Assembly: GCA_025526935.1 (NCBI GenBank) | Contig: JAHLKD010000047.1 | Coordinates: 62,001 to 126,000, forward strand | Reading direction: 5' to 3' | Length of the DNA: 64,000 nucleotides | Source of the DNA: Cladochytrium replicatum | Taxonomy: Eukaryota; Chytridiomycota; Chytridiomycetes; Cladochytriales; Cladochytriaceae | In this document: positions 25,701 through 35,298 of the stretch, one piece after another | Layout: each line of letters opens with the position of its first letter | How positions within the stretch are numbered: the first letter of the stretch is position 1 | Position numbers and translations under genes: made by a program | The notes under the pieces: model-generated | Seen by the model: the letters and a program-made list of their open reading frames with translations, nothing else | Database searches by the model: none | Told to the model about the DNA's origin: nothing

Positions 25701-26375
25701 TACCGTCGGTACACACAGTAATATTTGTAAGGGTTTCAGGTTGTACACCACAATCATGCAAGAGTACGAACGTTCTGAGCGACACAGTTCATTCGGTGAT
25801 GCAGAGTGGATCATAGAACCATTGTTTGATGTGTTATTTTTCAACAACTTTAAACGCACCCTTGAACTTGCTGTCCAATCAGCGTCGAGCCATGCCGACG
25901 TAATATTTCCCAATATTGTGTATTTACTAGCAACGCGTACAACCTGCCTTATATGGTAGTATGGCACCGCGTGGTGCTTAGCGGCCACCATGCGTTGATA
26001 TTGGCTCCACGAGCAATCACTCAGGGAAAATCAGCTCAGGGGACAGCCAATTGTTGGCCGTATCGGCTGTTCGACTGTTACAGCTAAGTAGAGAGGTGTA
26101 GGCTTACGTGATCTCTATTGATGACAAGTACAAAGCAACTCGACCCTGCGGTGTTATCAGGCAGCGAAATGCTTCGGCTGCAGTGGTCACCAATGCTTCG
26201 AATCCGGTGCATCACCACCGCCCCATGACCATGCTCGCAAATTACACATGATTAAAGAAAATTCTTCTGCCGCATGTTCCTTTCCTTTTAAAAGGCCTGC
26301 AGAACTTGAGCGGAAATCCAGTCCTCAAACACCACCTTATCCGTCTATTACCACAGCTATCGCTAACTTACCGCT
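25701..26375. other. Upstream region of the sugar transporter
   Basis: No exon is supported. The frame at 25741-25959 lacks motifs. A short AT-rich segment and pyrimidine runs near 26260-26370 may be the transporter promoter. Confidence 0.4.
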
Positions 26376-27989
26376 ATGGGCAAAGAAGAAGTCGTCGTTT
26401 CCAGCGCCTTCAACAACTCTGATAACCTTAACTGGTACTCGCCTGAGTTCTTGCACCTGTACTTCGCATGCTTTATTGCATTCTTGAACTCGGCGATCAA
26501 CGGTTATGACCTTTCTCTCTTGGGAGGTCTCTCCATTGTGCGCCCCTTCCTCGACACTTTCGCCGGTGTCGGTGCTAAGGAGTTCCCCGCAGCCGACAAC
26601 GCCCTGTTGTTCTCTCTCCTCCAGATTGGTTCCATTGTTGGTTGCTTTGTTTGCTACATCCCCATGGACTACTTCGGTCGTCGCGGTGGTATGATAACCG
26701 GTTCGGTTTTCATTATCATCGGTGCTTTGGTTTCCACCTTCACCTCCTCGCTTCCCGTCTTCATGTTTGGTCGTTTCGTCATCGGTTTCGGTGTCGTATT
26801 CGTGACCACTTCTGCCCCTGTGAGTATAACTGGGATTGATGCAAAGAAAACACCTTCTGATTGCGATCTATCGTAGGTTTACGCTGCTGAGGTCGCTCAC
26901 CCCGTTTTCCGTGGTCGTGCTGCTGCCTTCTACAACACTGGTTGGTTCGTCGGATCTCTCCCCGCCTCCGCTGTCGTCTACGGTCTCAGCTACCTCAAGA
27001 ACGACTTGTCGTGGAAGGTCCCCGTCGGTCTTCAGGCTGTGTTCTCCGGTATCGTGCTTCTTGGTTCATTCCTAATCCCTGAGTCCCCACGTTGGCTCGT
27101 CTCTAAGGGAAAGATCGACCAGGCTAAGGCTTTCTTGATCAAGTACCACGCCAACAACAACCCCGATGCCGAGATCGTCGCCATTGAGCTTCGGGAAATC
27201 ACCGAATCCATTGAGGATGAGAAGGCCCAGAACGCCTCCAGCTTCTCCGCCCTCTTCGCCACTCGCGCTGCCCGCTACCGCATGTTCTTGATGCTTTGCG
27301 TTGCGTTCTTCTCGCAGTACGCTGGTAACTGGCTCGCCGGCTACTTCCAGCCCCAGATCACCAAGTACTTCGGTATCGTCGGTGACGACCAGGCTCTCCT
27401 CCTCAACGTTGTTACCGGTATTATCTCGTTCGCTGCTGCTCTTGGTGGTGCCTCGCTTGTTGACAAGTTCGGTCGTCGCCCCTACTTGTTCTTCGGTCAC
27501 GTTGGCTACTCTCTGTGGTACTTGCTCATCATCATCTGCTTGGCTGTCTACTACCAGGGTGACGCGCCCGAGCCCGAGAAGGCCACTGGTCCCATTGCTG
27601 CCGGTATCGCCGCGTTCGTCTTCCTCCAGATCTTCGCCATCAACTACTCGATCTGCTGGACTCCTCTCAACGCTTTGTACCCCGTTGAGTGCTTGAACTA
27701 CGGTGCTCGTGCTAAGGGAATGGCTATCTGCCAGCTTCTCATCAACGCCGCTAACGTCTTCCAGTCCTACGTGCTCTCGTACGGTATCAACGCCTTCCGC
27801 TGGAAGTTCTTCTCGTTCTTCTTGCTCTTCAACATCCTCGCCGCCACCGTCGTCTACATCTTCTTCCCGGAGACAAAGGGTCGTACCCTTGAGCAGCTCG
27901 ACGAGGTTTTCGAGGCGCCCAACGTTGTCAAGGCTTCGCTCACCGCCCCCGTGTTGTCGGCTGACGTTGCTACCGCCGAGAAGGCATAA
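26376..27989 (+). CDS. MFS sugar transporter (hexose/disaccharide type)
   Basis: Exons 26376-26819 and 26877-27989, separated by a 57-nt intron, encode 518 residues with about twelve membrane helices in the plasma membrane. Sugar-porter signatures are present: INGYDLSLLGGL in helix 1, DYFGRRGGMITG (the R-x-G-R-R loop), the PESPRWLVSKGKIDQAKAFL segment after helix 6, FGRRPYLFFGH in the second half and FPETKGRTLEQLDEVF at the end. The family carries hexoses or disaccharides with protons; lactose-permease-like fungal members are close in layout. Codon use is strongly biased to C-ending codons, unlike neighbouring genes, which suggests high expression. The substrate is not predictable. Confidence 0.93.
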
Positions 27990-28324
27990 GTGCGTTCACA
28001 CCAGCAGAAAACAGGTCTTTCTCATTTTCTTTCCTTTCAACATCCCTTCGGGTCGAAGTTATTGGACTGGAAATCAGGAATAGTGTTCACTTTTAATCCC
28101 GGGCCCTACCCTTGACAAGACTTTCTCTATGAACTTACTCTTTTAAACGCTAGCGCCAAACTACTCACTAATTTGTGCTATTGCTATGACATACGATAAT
28201 ATAATGCGCTCCTTATGCGACCAAACTACTTGTGAGAAGAACATACATTTTTTTTAGTTTTTTGGTATTTTACACTTGCGACAGTGGGAAAACTCACTAT
28301 CACGTGCTCAAGTGATTCGAAAGC
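27990..28324. other. Intergenic region between transporter and ankyrin-YLSL gene
   Basis: Contains the transporter 3' UTR and the promoter of the next gene. A T-run lies at 28249-28262. No gene seen. Confidence 0.5.
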
Positions 28325-31300
28325 ATGAACTCAACCGGATCAGAACGACAAAGATCAGGCCTCCGAGTTGCACTAGATCCCTCTTCTCTCTTCCTCCAAA
28401 TCTGCACGGAGTTTGATCCCTCTGACCTCCCGACGCTCCGGCGACTCTTAAGCCTCGTTCATACACCAGAGATTACAAATCCCTCCATAGACATCAACAA
28501 CGTCTGCACGCCACACCAATGGCTCACAGGCCTCCACCTCGCCTGCACCAACGGCCACACAGAGATCGTGAGGATACTCCTCGGCGACGAGGTCCGTGCG
28601 ATGGTGAATGTCCGGGACAAGGAAGGATGGACTCCTCTCATGTGCGCGGTTGCAGAGGGGCACACTGAGATCATCGAGATGCTGGGACGCTGCCAGGGAA
28701 AGATATGCGAGGATGGGAAGAAGGAAGGCCCCAACACTGACGGGGAATGGTTCTACTCGCCTGATGGACCCATTGATTTCACACTTGCGAACGACGATGA
28801 TGAAACTGCAGAAGATCTTGTGTTTGAGGGCAAGGAAAGGGAGATCAAGAGCATTCTGAAAGGTAACGAGCTCGAAATGTCGAATCCTCTTGGTTGTGAT
28901 GGAGATTGATCGCGGGAAATCAACAGATCTAAGGAAGAAGTTCCCTCCTGTCGCACGCAATGACATACCCTGTCACATCACCGTTGAAGATGAGTGCGAG
29001 GAAGATTGTGATGAAGAGGAGTCTGCTTCTGGGAACGACGATGCCAAACAAGTCTCTAACGACGAAGTCGATGAGGAGATCCCTGTTTCAAAGTTCTCGA
29101 TGCTTAACATGAAAGATAAGACGGCTTCAAAGAACGCCAGCGCAACCAATTCAGTCAGGTTGACATTAGAAGACGAGGTGAGTTGCTCTCTGAACGGCCA
29201 TTCAGCATCTGATCTCCAAGAACTAGAACATTGCAGTTCCATTGGACAAAGATTGTAACATACCCCAAACTGACACAATGGAGACATGTGAGAGTTCTAT
29301 ACTCAGCTGCCAAGATGAATCCGTTACCGAACGTGACCCGTCCGGCAACGATGTCAGTCAAGGCAATGTTTTCGCATCAGTTAACGATCCCGAAGACGGC
29401 GAAGAGTCATCGAAGGAGCAGGAGTTGATAACCGAATCAACATATTCTGAATGTGTAAGAGCCAAAGCTTCACTTCCTTTTGCATTTCTAATGCTGCGCT
29501 CAGCAGGGTGTTACCAACAACGCGGTCCACGAAGTCAGGCAAATGGTCATTGTGTCAGAACAAATACTCTATGGAACTCTTGAGGGCTTCGTATACCTCT
29601 CTCTCGACGAATCTGAGCAGAGTACCTCAACTTATGTAAGCTCAGTCTTGCAACACTCTATATCGACCACTAATCTTATCCATTCTGTAAAAGCCGATCC
29701 CCGATCCTGCCATCGCCGACACAGTCTCGGTGCAACCACTCTACGGAACCCTTGATGGCACGGTATACTTGTCTCTCAACGAGCTGGAACTGGATACCGG
29801 AGCCAGAGCTTCCGTGACAAAGTTCTACGTACACTTCGATGGTAGCGTTTACCTCTCCCTCCATGAGGCAGAGCAGGAGGATACCTCAAAGGTCAGTGAT
29901 TGACAGCACGATTATAGTTATCTGACGGGCCATCCTCTTTAGAATGACATTGAGCTTGCTTCCGTGGTTCCAACGAACGACAGAGCTTGTGGTCCAACTT
30001 TTTACCGAACCCGATACGACTTTGGTAACCTTTCACTTGATGACTCCGGTCCTGCCGTGCTTCCTATTGCGGAGGGTGGATCCGACGTGAAAACCACCCC
30101 AGACGTAAGTGCGATCGCAGCAGCACCACACTCACCCTGACGAATCAAAACTTCGGTAGAGAGGAGCCGAGTGCGCTAGTACCACCAAAGTACGTGATCT
30201 GACCCTTTACGGGACACCCGACGGCGTCGTGTGCCTGACTCTGGAGGAGTCGAGCCCTGAAGCGCTTCCATGGTCAGAGGATCTTGCACCAGCGGCTGAC
30301 TGCGAGACGCTCCAAGTATATGAAGATGAAGACTGCCCGCTCTCGGACCAAGCATGTGAACACCTGCCTGAGCGATACACTGTGCAAAGTGTGGTGCTCG
30401 GATCCTATGAGATGAACCCTGTGGGCATTCAATATACCTCGACAAACGATATTCACAAGGAGACACTAATCTTCAAAGAAACGGGCTGCGATCAGACATC
30501 AAGGGCTTGCCATATCTCGAAGGAGATAGAGCGTATCCTCACCCGTATCAATGGCAGCACCAACCAACACGTCGACAGTAGCCCCTGCATCATCAAAATT
30601 CATGACGAGATTAAAACCGAAACTGGAGGAGCAGAGAGCTCGTCCCAGTGTGACCCGATAGGAGACGATCAAGTCAACCGACCCGAGATCCTCACTCACG
30701 CTAATGCCAGCACACCGAGCTACTTGACAACCGTGATGTCCATGACAGCACAGGTGATATTTCAATACCTTATATTCTTTGATCTGACCTGACCGGCTAC
30801 GTTAAGGTTCATGAACAGACTAAAGAATCCGCAGAAGTTGCACTAGAACCGACACATCCGGCTGAGATCGCGGCAACCACGTTTGCGACACACAACATCA
30901 CAGAAGGTACAAAAGAGGACCTGACATTCACCAAGAAAGCTGGTCAGTTGCACGAAGAAACTGCTGCGTCATCGACTGTAAAGGTCGAATTAATCTTGTT
31001 TCCACAGATGCAAAGGACAAATCACTTGTCCAAAACTCACGCATGCCCGATGCATTCTTCAACAAGCCCGTCGAACCAACCACAGAACGTTCTGAAATCT
31101 CTGCTACTCCTAAACGGAGTTTATCGGCCAGTGCCACGATGGCAGCCACCAGAAATTGGTCAATCGATCAAGAAACAAAATCAAAGCGGTCCTACTCAAA
31201 CACCACAACGAATCAATCTCTCACTTCTCCACCATGTGAAGCTTCACATCAGCCCAACTCAAAGCAGCCTCCTGTTAAGAAAGGTCTCGTACTGGAGAGA

Positions 31301-31907
31301 GTCGCATTCTTCCAACCAAGTCCCACCGGGAAAGAAGCTTGCACCGAACCCATTCGGCGAGCTGGTAACCACAAAGATCTTCACAATTTTGTTCAACCAA
31401 AATTGACTCAATGTGTTTTGTTTAGGCTCCCTCGAAAGCATGGATGCCAAAGAGACTGAGGTAGTCCAACTCTCCCAACAATCGTCGGGAGTGCACCCAA
31501 GATCGTATCCGGCCATTCCCAAGTCGCCTAGAGGATCGCTGGTCGCAGAGAAAGTGTCGCTGTTTCAGAAAGAATCCGCGGCTCAGCCATCGCCCGGACA
31601 TCCCAAACTCAGCATCCAGCCAAAACGACCAATCCAGGAAGAAACCATTACTACCACCAGCGCTCAACACGCTGTCCCCAATGGGTTCCGCAAAGCTAGC
31701 CCGTATGTTACTACCTCCTGCACCCCGCAGTCACAACCTCAAGCTACACCCCGCTCGGTCTCCTCAGTTAAGGAGAGAGTCAGATGCTTTGAGCAGAATG
31801 CCACCCCAAACCCTCAGCTTCCTCGCAAAACCACCACAACTCACAATGGACAAAGCAGATGCATGCACACAATGCTGAAGACGTTCCTTGCGGTCAAAGC
31901 GAACTGA
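28325..31907 (+). CDS. Ankyrin protein with YGTxDGxVYLSL repeats (undescribed architecture)
   Basis: I propose ten exons: 28325-28862, 28927-29177, 29227-29454, 29504-29635, 29694-29891, 29943-30104, 30160-30753, 30807-30942, 31008-31364 and 31426-31907. All joins are in phase, with introns of 49-65 nt, giving 1025 residues. The N-terminus has two ankyrin repeats (LTGLHLACTNGHTEIVRILL, EGWTPLMCAVAEGHTEIIEM). An acidic linker follows. Exons 4-7 carry a repeat: LYGTLEGFVYLSLDESE, LYGTLDGTVYLSLNELE, FYVHFDGSVYLSLHEAE, a degenerate FYRTRYDFGNLSLDDSG and LYGTPDGVVCLTLEESS. These exons are bounded by phase-0 introns, which suits exon duplication. The disordered C-terminal third has three copies of a short motif: LERVAFFQ, AEKVSLFQ and KERVRCFE. 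No signal or membrane helix is seen. I recognise only the ankyrin part; a cytoplasmic scaffold is an inference. Confidence 0.75.
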
Positions 31908-32304
31908 AAACATTTATATTTTGCTTTGGACGGAGAAGAGCGAGAATGTACTTTTTGTGTTTTATGCTGCACAGATGTTTAAACCCCCCCCCCCCCCCCC
32001 CCCCACCACCACCACCATTTGCAGTACTTTCATCACATGGGAAAAACTTGCGGAGGATATTTCTTGGGTGCTAAGTGATCCCCCTTACACCTCTGCTCCA
32101 TCGAATAGGTAACTGTCAGCTGTAAAATGCATCGCTTTTCTTCCTTAAAACAGAGTTCATTCCTCTCAAACAGCTCAATTGTGCTTACCACGAGCCACCC
32201 AACCACACCACGTGTGATCTCCGCCACTGGCACACGCTCCCTTTTTATTCTCCTAACCGCCAAAACTTTCCCAACAAAATCATTTGATCCACCATTCCAT
32301 CGCA
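31908..32304. other. 3' UTR and promoter region before eL22
   Basis: Contains the poly-C tract at 31984-32004 and the upstream region of the ribosomal protein gene. No coding exon. Confidence 0.5.
31984..32016. repeat. Poly-C tract followed by CAC repeats
   Basis: About 21 consecutive C residues are followed by four acc units, just after the stop codon of the ankyrin-YLSL gene. The exact C count could be affected by sequencing. Confidence 0.85.
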
Positions 32305-32957
32305 ATGTCTCCCGCTGTCGCTGTAAGTGTTTACCCGTGAGAACCGAACCTGCACAATGCCACGAATGAGTAGCCCTGCGGATCCTTTTTCTCCACATGC
32401 GGGCAAAAGCCTCCAGAGGCCATACCGTTTTCTGTGTGCTTTGGAAAGGTTTCTGTCCCCATAGTGGTTTGCTCGCTGTTAGGCTTGGTGCATCCGTTGG
32501 TTCTTACTCGAGGTTCTCTTCCTCGCTGGGTCCATTAGAAGAAGGACAAGGTCAAGAAGACCCCCCTCAAATTCACTATCGACGTCTCTGGCCCTGCCAA
32601 CGACGGTATTCTTGACACCGCTGCCTTTGTAAGTTTTCATGACCTATTTGTTCTCAAACAATTCTAAATTTTTAAAAACAGGAGAAGTTCCTTCACGACA
32701 GGATCAAGGTAGCCGGTCGCACCAACAACCTCGGTGACATCATCACCATCACCCGCTCCGGCAATTCCAGCATCACCGTCACCGCTGCAGCGGGAACCCC
32801 CTTCTCCAAGCGCTACCTGAAGTACCTCACAAAGAAGTTCCTCAAGAAGCACCAGCTCCGTGACTGGTTGCGCGTCATTGCTTCCAGCAAGGGTGCTTAC
32901 GAGCTCAAGTACTTCAACATCGCCGCTGACAACGATGAGGAGGAGGCCGACGAGTAA
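32305..32957 (+). CDS. RPL22: Ribosomal protein eL22
   Basis: A protein of the large cytosolic ribosomal subunit. Exons 32305-32322, 32539-32628 and 32682-32957 encode 127 residues. The first exon holds only MSPAVA, and a 216-nt first intron follows, as is common in fungal ribosomal protein genes. The body has [40 protein letters not shown], an [20 protein letters not shown] segment and the acidic tail NDEEEADE, matching eL22 along its length. Codon use is strongly C-biased, as expected for high expression. Confidence 0.96.
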
Positions 32958-33483
32958 AATGTCTCGATAACAAAAGAAAAAGGACAAGCTCGAAGTGTGG
33001 TTGGGAATTTGATTGGCCATCCTGTCCTGTCACATCCATATCACATAAACTTAAAAGAATCGATTACATATTTGTACATACAACCGCATAGTTACATGGG
33101 AACCATCACCGAAAAACGTTCTAAATTGATGTATGCATAGTCCACGGTGGCGGAAGACAATGGATGGGGTTACACCACAACGAAAATAACGACAAACAAA
33201 CTGATACCTGATGATCAGCGTGCGCATAATGATGGATTCCTGCTCAGCCTGCTGATGGGTTAGGTGGTCCTCAGAAATTTTGTGCCGTTACTCCTTTTTT
33301 ATCACTTTGCGTGGAAAACGGCAGATTTTACCCTACACCACTCCAACTCAAACTCAGTGCCTCAGGACGGGGGGCGTGCCAATTACTCACTGTCCAGCGC
33401 TTGGCTTGTGCTTTAGCGATAATACTGCTGGGTGCGCTCCTGCAGACACTCTCCTCCACCCCTGATTTTATTCCCACCCCATC
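32958..33483. other. Intergenic region
   Basis: 3' flank of eL22 and promoter of the seven-helix protein gene. No exon is supported. Confidence 0.5.
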
Positions 33484-35298
33484 ATGGCGCTTGACGAGAC
33501 CACTCTGGCCGCCGTGTGGTGTGTGCTTGGCTTTTGCATCCTGGCTTTCATCTTCTTCATCGGCGCCTTCATCTCCAACGTCCGTCGTTACAAAGAAGCA
33601 GCTAGAAATCAACCTAATGGACGATGGACCCGCTTTCATAAGATGATGATGGTGTGTGTGCTGTTCCAACTACTCGGGGCGACGCTTGCAATTGGTATGT
33701 CATATGTATATGCTGGATATATCCGTCATATCTGATCGCATCCAAAATGCGTAGCAATGATGTTCATGATGTTGTTGTGGTTCCCGGATCATATGGACGC
33801 CAGCATTGCATGCACTCGATTGACTTTCGACCTGGGACCTGCTCGTATGGCTCTGTCAATCATGGAAGTCATGGAGCAAGTTCTCCTCGAGCTTGGAAGT
33901 GAGTGCAACACACAAAGTTCACACGATTGTCGAATACTAACCAATAGGTGGTCCCCAGACCTCTTTTACTTCATCGTACTTATGGACAGATATTATACAT
34001 TTCGCCTGTTTATACCTGGTATGAAAATTCACCCACCGTGTGTCGATGCGGTTCCTCTAATGCTTTGGCAGGCGGCAATTCTGCCATCGTTAGGAGAACC
34101 ATCTACAGCACCGGAATCTTTCTCTACCTTGTCACAATCGCTCAGATCGTTGTTGCCAACACTGGCGATCGCTCTCTAAAGCTCACCAAAAGCAATCCTC
34201 ACTGCATCGCTGCCTTCGTGATGCAGTTGGGCTTCGTCGACATGATCGGAGGAGTTGACATTATGGTCGCATATCACTTGTCCCTTGTCGCTCTGGGCTT
34301 GGACCAACATGCCAAAATTCGCTCGTGGTCGATCTTGAAAGGTTCGCGTTCAGGGTCTCGAAGCGGTGCCAGTGGTGGGAACACCGAGCTCTCCCCAATT
34401 CAAGTATGCTGTTGATAAACCGTTCAAATCGGGAAGCACAAATCTGATTAAAATCCTGTTTATCTTTTGTTCTTGAAATCAGTCGGCGGGCGAATACAAC
34501 TCCTTCAACAAACTCGCATATCCAAATTCCCCCATAACATCCGACGCCAATGGCTCCACGCAACCATTCCCACACCACCGCCCTTCGCTAACTGTCTACC
34601 AACGCATCATGTTAACACCACACCGTCGCCGCGTAGTGTTCCTCGTCATCGTCGCACTTTCGATGGACATGATAGCTCTCGCTCTCTGCATCCTCCCGCT
34701 CGTCTCGGCCTCCATCGGCCAAGTCACCCGCGCCTTCGAGCTCATCGCAGTGCACCTTGTGCTCATGCACATCCTCGCCAGTCTGTGGTTCCTCGAGTCG
34801 TTCAAGGAGGTCGTTCTGGCACCCAAACCCTGGCTCGTCGGCGCGGCCTTGTCGAGCGTCACCGTCGGTCCACAGCCAGTGGAAAAATACAGCGGATCGA
34901 CCGGGTCGCACCCGAGAGCCGAGATTCCGAAAGCGTTTGCGTTCGAGCAGCGGGCACAGGCGAGCTGGAACAGGTTTTCGAGCACCCACGGTGCGGGGCC
35001 GAAAATTTACGGTGTGGACGTTGGGTCGGGTGCCAACGGCTCGAATCATCTCGATGTGGGAGCGTCGCCGTTCGGTTCGTACCCGCAGGTGGATCCGGGG
35101 CCGTCGCCGTTCAGTGGGTACCCACAAGCGGAGCTGTACGGAGCGAACAGATACCCACGAAAGTTGTCGATAGGGAGGGAGATGAATGTCGACCCGGGAC
35201 CGTCGCCGTACAGTCCGGGAAGACAAAACATCGAGCACTATGCAGCGAGCAATGGACAACGACCGCAGGCGAACGGATTTGTTAATCATTGGGGCTAG
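33484..35298 (+). CDS. Unrecognised seven-helix membrane protein
   Basis: Proposed exons are 33484-33694, 33755-33898, 33959-34018, 34072-34403 and 34483-35298, giving 520 residues. The third acceptor is chosen because a perfect TACTAAC branch site lies just upstream and only the CCCAG site keeps frame. About seven hydrophobic helices are visible: AVWCVLGFCILAFIFFIGAF; MMMVCVLFQLLGATLA; LFYFIVLMDRYYTFRLF; TGIFLYLVTIAQIVV; AFVMQLGFVDMIGGVDIMVA; VVFLVIVALSMDMIALALCI; LIAVHLVLMHILASLWFL. A long cytoplasmic C-terminal tail has short repeats (VGASPFGSYPQ, VDPGPSPFSGYPQ, VDPGPSPYSPG). The layout resembles a receptor or tetraspan-like fungal family, but no GPCR signature was found, so no function is assigned. 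Confidence 0.7.

Follow-up and report, generated by a model that had tools for sequence, protein, structure and literature searches.

The gene at positions 28325-31907 (plus strand) of the window, i.e. the whole 64-kb stretch of Cladochytrium replicatum DNA analyzed here, encodes a real array of a short motif, which so far has been found outside this gene (the window gene) only in a decayed sister copy, and which is most likely a docking array. In our model, the window gene has ten exons and encodes 1025 residues; the C. replicatum genome containing the window comprises 50.5 Mb.

The repeated unit is 17 residues long with the consensus LYGTxDGxVYLSLxExE. There are four clear copies, all on the plus strand: U1 (LYGTLEGFVYLSLDESE, 29567-29617) in exon 4, U2 (LYGTLDGTVYLSLNELE, 29739-29789) and U3 (FYVHFDGSVYLSLHEAE, 29823-29873) in exon 5, and U5 (LYGTPDGVVCLTLEESS, 30205-30255) in exon 7. 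A fifth copy on the same strand, U4 (FYRTRYDFGNLSLDDSG, 30000-30050) in exon 6, is doubtful. For each of U1, U2, U3 and U5, the leave-one-out score was matched in none of 2000 shuffles of the tail, whereas that of U4 was reached in 247 of 2000. All five units, U4 included, rank first among the 941 positions of the real protein. The best internal 17-residue match in the protein scores 64, as compared to a mean of 32.7 and a maximum of 44 in 200 shuffles. A sequence-only reading of this DNA had assigned one or two units to each of exons 4-7 and had graded them as three close copies, one diverged copy and one that keeps only the SL/D core; this assignment stands for exons 4, 5 and 7 with their four copies clearly above the shuffles, and falls for exon 6, the copy of which is chance-like. 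The units are irregularly spaced (38, 28, 42 and 50 residues from start to start), and in exons 4-7 the first unit starts at exon residue 16-22. In a looser form, the motif reads [LF]Yxxx[DE]GxVxL[ST]Lx[DE].

Exon 1 (28325-28862) encodes a degenerate RVxF motif (LRVALDP), downstream of it the ankyrin repeats of the head (Ank_2, E 4.2e-13, residues 62-121), and a conserved WFYSPDGPIDF element. Exon 2 (28927-29177) encodes DLRKKFPP followed by an acidic linker and is homologous to the paralogue on contig C98 (P0034). Exon 3 (29227-29454), also acidic linker, lies outside the deposited model, and we judge the intron 2 acceptor in front of it (AACTAG) to be weak. The unit exons are exon 4 (29504-29635, with the acceptor at either 29504 or 29507), exon 5 (29694-29891), which holds two units, exon 6 (29943-30104) and exon 7 (30160-30753); exon 8 (30807-30942), exon 9 (31008-31364) and exon 10 (31426-31907) follow, all on the plus strand. 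Introns 2-7 are six consecutive phase-0 introns, which bears out the earlier claim that phase-0 introns bound the unit exons, and introns 1, 8 and 9 are in phase 1. By a codon score trained on C98 and nine long open reading frames of the window, in which other frames are penalized for stops, the model frame outscores the other five in all ten exons, narrowly so in exon 9 (0.064 vs 0.021). The tail is mostly low-complexity, and exons 4-6 are its most hydrophobic part (ILVFYWM fraction 0.32 vs 0.19-0.25 for the remaining parts). Further downstream, a second repeat, V-x-[ED]-[KR]-V-x-x-F-[EQ], is present in three copies at residues 841, 905 and 980, a number reached in 0 of 2000 shuffles: VLERVAFFQ in exon 9 (31289-31315), which contains the RVxF match RVAF, and VAEKVSLFQ (31542-31568) and VKERVRCFE (31767-31793) in exon 10. 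VKERVRCFE resembles the C-terminal motif of some chytrid family members, and several chytrid homologues carry a sequence akin to the second repeat, SVKDRIxxFE, close to the C-terminus.

The deposited C. replicatum protein P0001 (673 residues) is identical to residues 353-1025 of our model. It starts at the Met of VRQMVIVSEQ (model residue 353) and leaves out exons 1-3, the ankyrin exon included. Because the two are identical from this start inside exon 4 onward, the splices from exon 4 to exon 10 agree. A query with exons 1-3 found no near-identical deposited protein among the 32 matches listed (186-593 residues; best identity 53% and partial) and, as a consequence, the deposited annotation seems to be without the ankyrin exons (28325-29540). 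Taken at face value, the deposited model would place the unit exons in a gene separate from the ankyrin exon, and retention of intron 2, which leads to a stop ending at 29258, would agree with this, as does the start of P0001 within exon 4. We nevertheless regard two genes as very improbable. The paralogue P0034 is deposited as a single protein that has the head and the tail as well as the C-terminal motif; residues 14-282 of the window protein align to it in one continuous alignment (E 1.25e-62), which is weak past exon 2; and head and C-terminal motif also occur together in P0041, P0043, P0048 and P0002. When compared directly with P0034, the window gene's C-terminal motif gives a weak match (E 0.027). 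Because P0034 is one protein, and from the coding scores and splice sites, we infer that the ankyrin exon is joined to the unit exons through the likewise inferred exon 3-to-4 step. The motif exons would thus sit beside an ankyrin head as the sequence-only reading had it, in contradiction to the deposited model.

Judged from its sequence, the window gene is best explained as a diverged paralogue in a chytrid family of MYPT-like scaffolds. In this family, the head consists of an RVxF PP1-docking motif followed by ankyrin repeats, and homologues of the head are found in Synchytrium, Quaeritorhiza, Rhizophlyctis, Nowakowskiella, Boothiomyces, Batrachochytrium, Polyrhizophydium, Gaertneriomyces, Thoreauomyces and Clydaea. 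With RVxF defined as [KR]-x0-1-[VIL]-x-[FW], as given in an excerpt of PMC10731240, 15 of the 17 homologues fetched (P0047, a near-duplicate of P0046, is left out of this count) have a match ahead of the EGWTP motif and the ankyrin core, and P0046 and P0051 have none. Across an alignment of ten heads, all have V10 and D13 in this region and nine have F12; the tenth, that of the window gene, has leucine there (RVAL, where paralogue heads have RVLF), and its LRVALD does not match the pattern. The family is predicted to bind PP1 from the motif only. Some members also share the C-terminal motif SVK[ED][RK][VI]xx[FL][EQ], which is present in 5 of the 17 homologues, some of the others being short or partial models. 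MYPT proteins have a C-terminal PKG-interacting/leucine-zipper domain. The family resembles MYPT1/PPP1R12 in having RVxF before the ankyrin repeats and a long tail; however, the window copy has RVAL instead of RVxF, and Pfam searches at E 1 returned no MYPT C-terminal domain for the window protein or for P0034, P0043, P0041, P0048, P0039 and P0001. VYLSL units are not known in MYPT. PDB searches with the head were rejected as a discriminator for MYPT, as the best 60 of 360-436 hits were generic ankyrins and designed repeat proteins. A literature search found nothing joining MYPT1, ankyrin and chytrid, which says little about papers beyond those searched.

C. replicatum has two canonical paralogues, on contigs C85 and C98; our C98 model equals P0034 minus its 36 extra N-terminal residues. 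In a tree of 18 heads, C85 and C98 form a close pair, and the window copy has no firm placement, with C85 and C98 as its nearest neighbors by path. In both P0034 and the C85 model, residues 1-220 contain a second, upstream ankyrin segment that the window copy does not have. Neither canonical paralogue contains a unit by regular expression, and the unit profile scored at best 18.0 over both loci.

In the rest of the genome, a blended unit query returned three places at E ≤ 10, two in the window gene and one on contig C6; absence elsewhere is a soft result because this query recovered only two of the window gene's four clear units. A longer query returned the window gene and four weak places (C71, C61, C12 and C20; E 0.1-1.6), with C6 not listed, and the unit profile gave no score above 16.0 at these four loci. 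On C6, the segmental copy takes in the upstream neighbor (86% identical over 2386 columns), and the ankyrin gene itself, the sister copy, is decayed, its head disrupted by stops and a deletion. It retains two recognizable units, which were outside the set used to build the profile and score 38.5 and 34.8, as compared to 20.0 for the next best match in about 228,000 codon positions. Between the tails of the two genes, only two units and the C-terminal stretch match (tblastn, E < 0.001). The sister copy also has leucine at the RVxF phenylalanine position. The duplicated segment (L014) corresponds to window positions 25856-28210, 32296-32988 and 33278-35094, and the flanks of the decayed ankyrin gene are 77-86% identical. 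Together with the close pair C85/C98, the duplication makes a duplicated or hybrid genome possible.

Among deposited proteins, a loose regular expression found the unit in none of the 68 fetched besides P0001 (approximately 18 of the chytrid family, the rest mostly other ankyrin proteins), and the unit profile scored at best 20.75 among these 68 as compared to 60.75 for P0001. A protein search with model residues 340-701 returned only P0001 from 4958 candidates; it covers proteins of 0.55-1.75 times the query length that share exact words, and could therefore overlook relatives that are short or divergent. The idea of a new repeat module therefore found no backing in any spread of the unit, be it among these proteins or, with the softness noted above, in the genome. 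The lack of a known domain family with this motif was, by contrast, supported in the family libraries searched: P0001 matched no family in Pfam or NCBIfam at E 1, the only profile match of exons 4-5 was DUF6123 (E 0.035, under its cut-off), and exon 5 had no match among PDB sequences at E 10. By sequence, the units appear to fit no described family among those tested. Another family member, Quaeritorhiza P0037, has a tail repeat of its own at residues 865 and 1020 (score 66 vs a maximum of 45 in 30 shuffles), which is likewise 17 residues long, and its sequence, EAQPLKPVKSDETSRQD, is unrelated to the window units. In two of the 17 tails tested, from which P0040 was left out as too short, the score is higher than in any of 30 shuffles.

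Over the 14-codon core of U1, U2, U3 and U5, pooled pS is 0.67 and pN 0.26, and pN was equal to or above pS in 0 of 2000 column bootstraps; the test is partly circular because the units were picked by their amino acid likeness. Low pN beside high pS shows constraint or convergence, and does not show which. Only U1 and U2 retain synonymous likeness (pS 0.32), while the other nine unit pairs have pS of 0.66-0.97. Comparison of introns with each other gave no clear likeness, two of 36 pairs standing at 3 of 200 shuffles. Starting at the end of the head, two phase-1 introns interrupt C98, which has a single 1008-base exon where the window gene has several; in the window gene, six phase-0 introns lie between exons 2 and 8. 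This difference fits exon gain or duplication, which is a plausible origin of the unit exons. The exon duplication proposed earlier agrees with the shared position of the unit starts in exons 4-7, but gains no clear support from the introns, and the synonymous likeness is confined to U1/U2. We do not claim that the units derive from YxxDGPIDL, a conserved element behind the ankyrin repeats: it is the top-scoring place in 12 of 13 related heads, the exception being P0037, where the top place follows directly behind the element, but in 12 of the 13 heads the score is not above 60 shuffles.

What, then, might the array do? We tentatively favor, as quite possible, the view that the window-gene tail carries an array of short docking motifs, beta-forming and specific to this paralogue, that is predicted to bind a partner. 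In this model, the lineage of the window gene and its sister lost the canonical RVxF phenylalanine and gained a tail array of a new short motif. Each unit would be a short hairpin or strand with a Y arm, a DG turn, an alternating V-x-L-x-L face and an acidic end; it would dock onto the partner by strand addition, and four copies would give avidity. A single-sequence structure model of exon 5 alone has strands at residues 13-18, 24-28, 38-46 and 52-58, i.e. two per unit, in weak agreement with the hairpins suggested by the sequence-only reading, with low confidence (mean pLDDT 60.2, pTM 0.32). The same four strands, and the hydrophobicity of exons 4-6, would suit four or five hairpins that pack as one small beta domain instead of acting singly, which we consider improbable given the irregular spacing, the low pTM and the lack of PDB (exon 5, E 10) and Pfam (P0001, E 1) matches. 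Equally, we think it improbable that the units bind Atg8 as LIR/AIM motifs or SUMO as SIM motifs, which would tether the protein to targets of autophagy or of SUMO. U1-U3 share a YLSL core with an acidic flank, and the tail contains three matches to the xLIR pattern (taken from an excerpt of PMC5119064) as compared to a shuffle mean of 0.73, with 73 of 2000 shuffles reaching three. However, xLIR fits only U1 and U3 of the five units, and the aromatic position (Y, Y, Y, N and C in U1-U5; Y and H in the sister copy) is lost in U4, U5 and one sister-copy unit; EVYLSL of TBC1D25 is an xLIR match in the excerpted iLIR table, where it is not verified (PMC5119064). The V-x-L-x-L strand with its acidic end, in several copies, also resembles SIM, which binds by strand addition according to an excerpt of PMC12751080. 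Yet a strict SIM core (our pattern: four residues, at least three of them V/L/I, acidic flank) is present only in U5 and missing in the other four units, the conserved Y and DG turn lie ahead of the strand, and strict matches are not enriched in the tail (3 vs a shuffle mean of 3.56). A loose SIM-like pattern gave six matches vs a mean of 0.83, but was fitted to the units post hoc. As far as sequence can tell, neither xLIR nor SIM accounts jointly for the conserved Y, DG and L-S-L, and no tested known motif seems to fit every unit.

It is unlikely, but deserves consideration, that the units are tolerated remnants of small tail duplications in a relaxed paralogue and have no present function. 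The decay of the sister copy, the degenerate RVxF in both genes and the unrelated tail repeat of P0037 would be expected if so; on the other hand, the motif is held in four copies despite wide synonymous divergence, and the frame is open across ten exons. Even for the docking array that we prefer, constraint may be weak, given how little of the motif is left in exon 6 and that the sister gene has decayed. More specific, and rather unlikely as a whole, is that a PP1-targeting-like scaffold, after duplication, lost its phosphatase-docking phenylalanine, evolved a multivalent beta-hairpin motif de novo and was rewired to a new partner; because C98 has one 1008-base exon there, the exons and phase-0 introns would have come along with the motif.

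It is known that motifs are gained and lost following duplication (PMC4654906, in excerpt). The window gene also draws attention to a family of MYPT-like proteins in chytrids, and its two canonical paralogues and one decayed sister provide reference copies for the birth of a motif. If our interpretation is true, the birth and multiplication of a short motif would be traceable within one fungal genome, together with the disappearance of an older docking motif.
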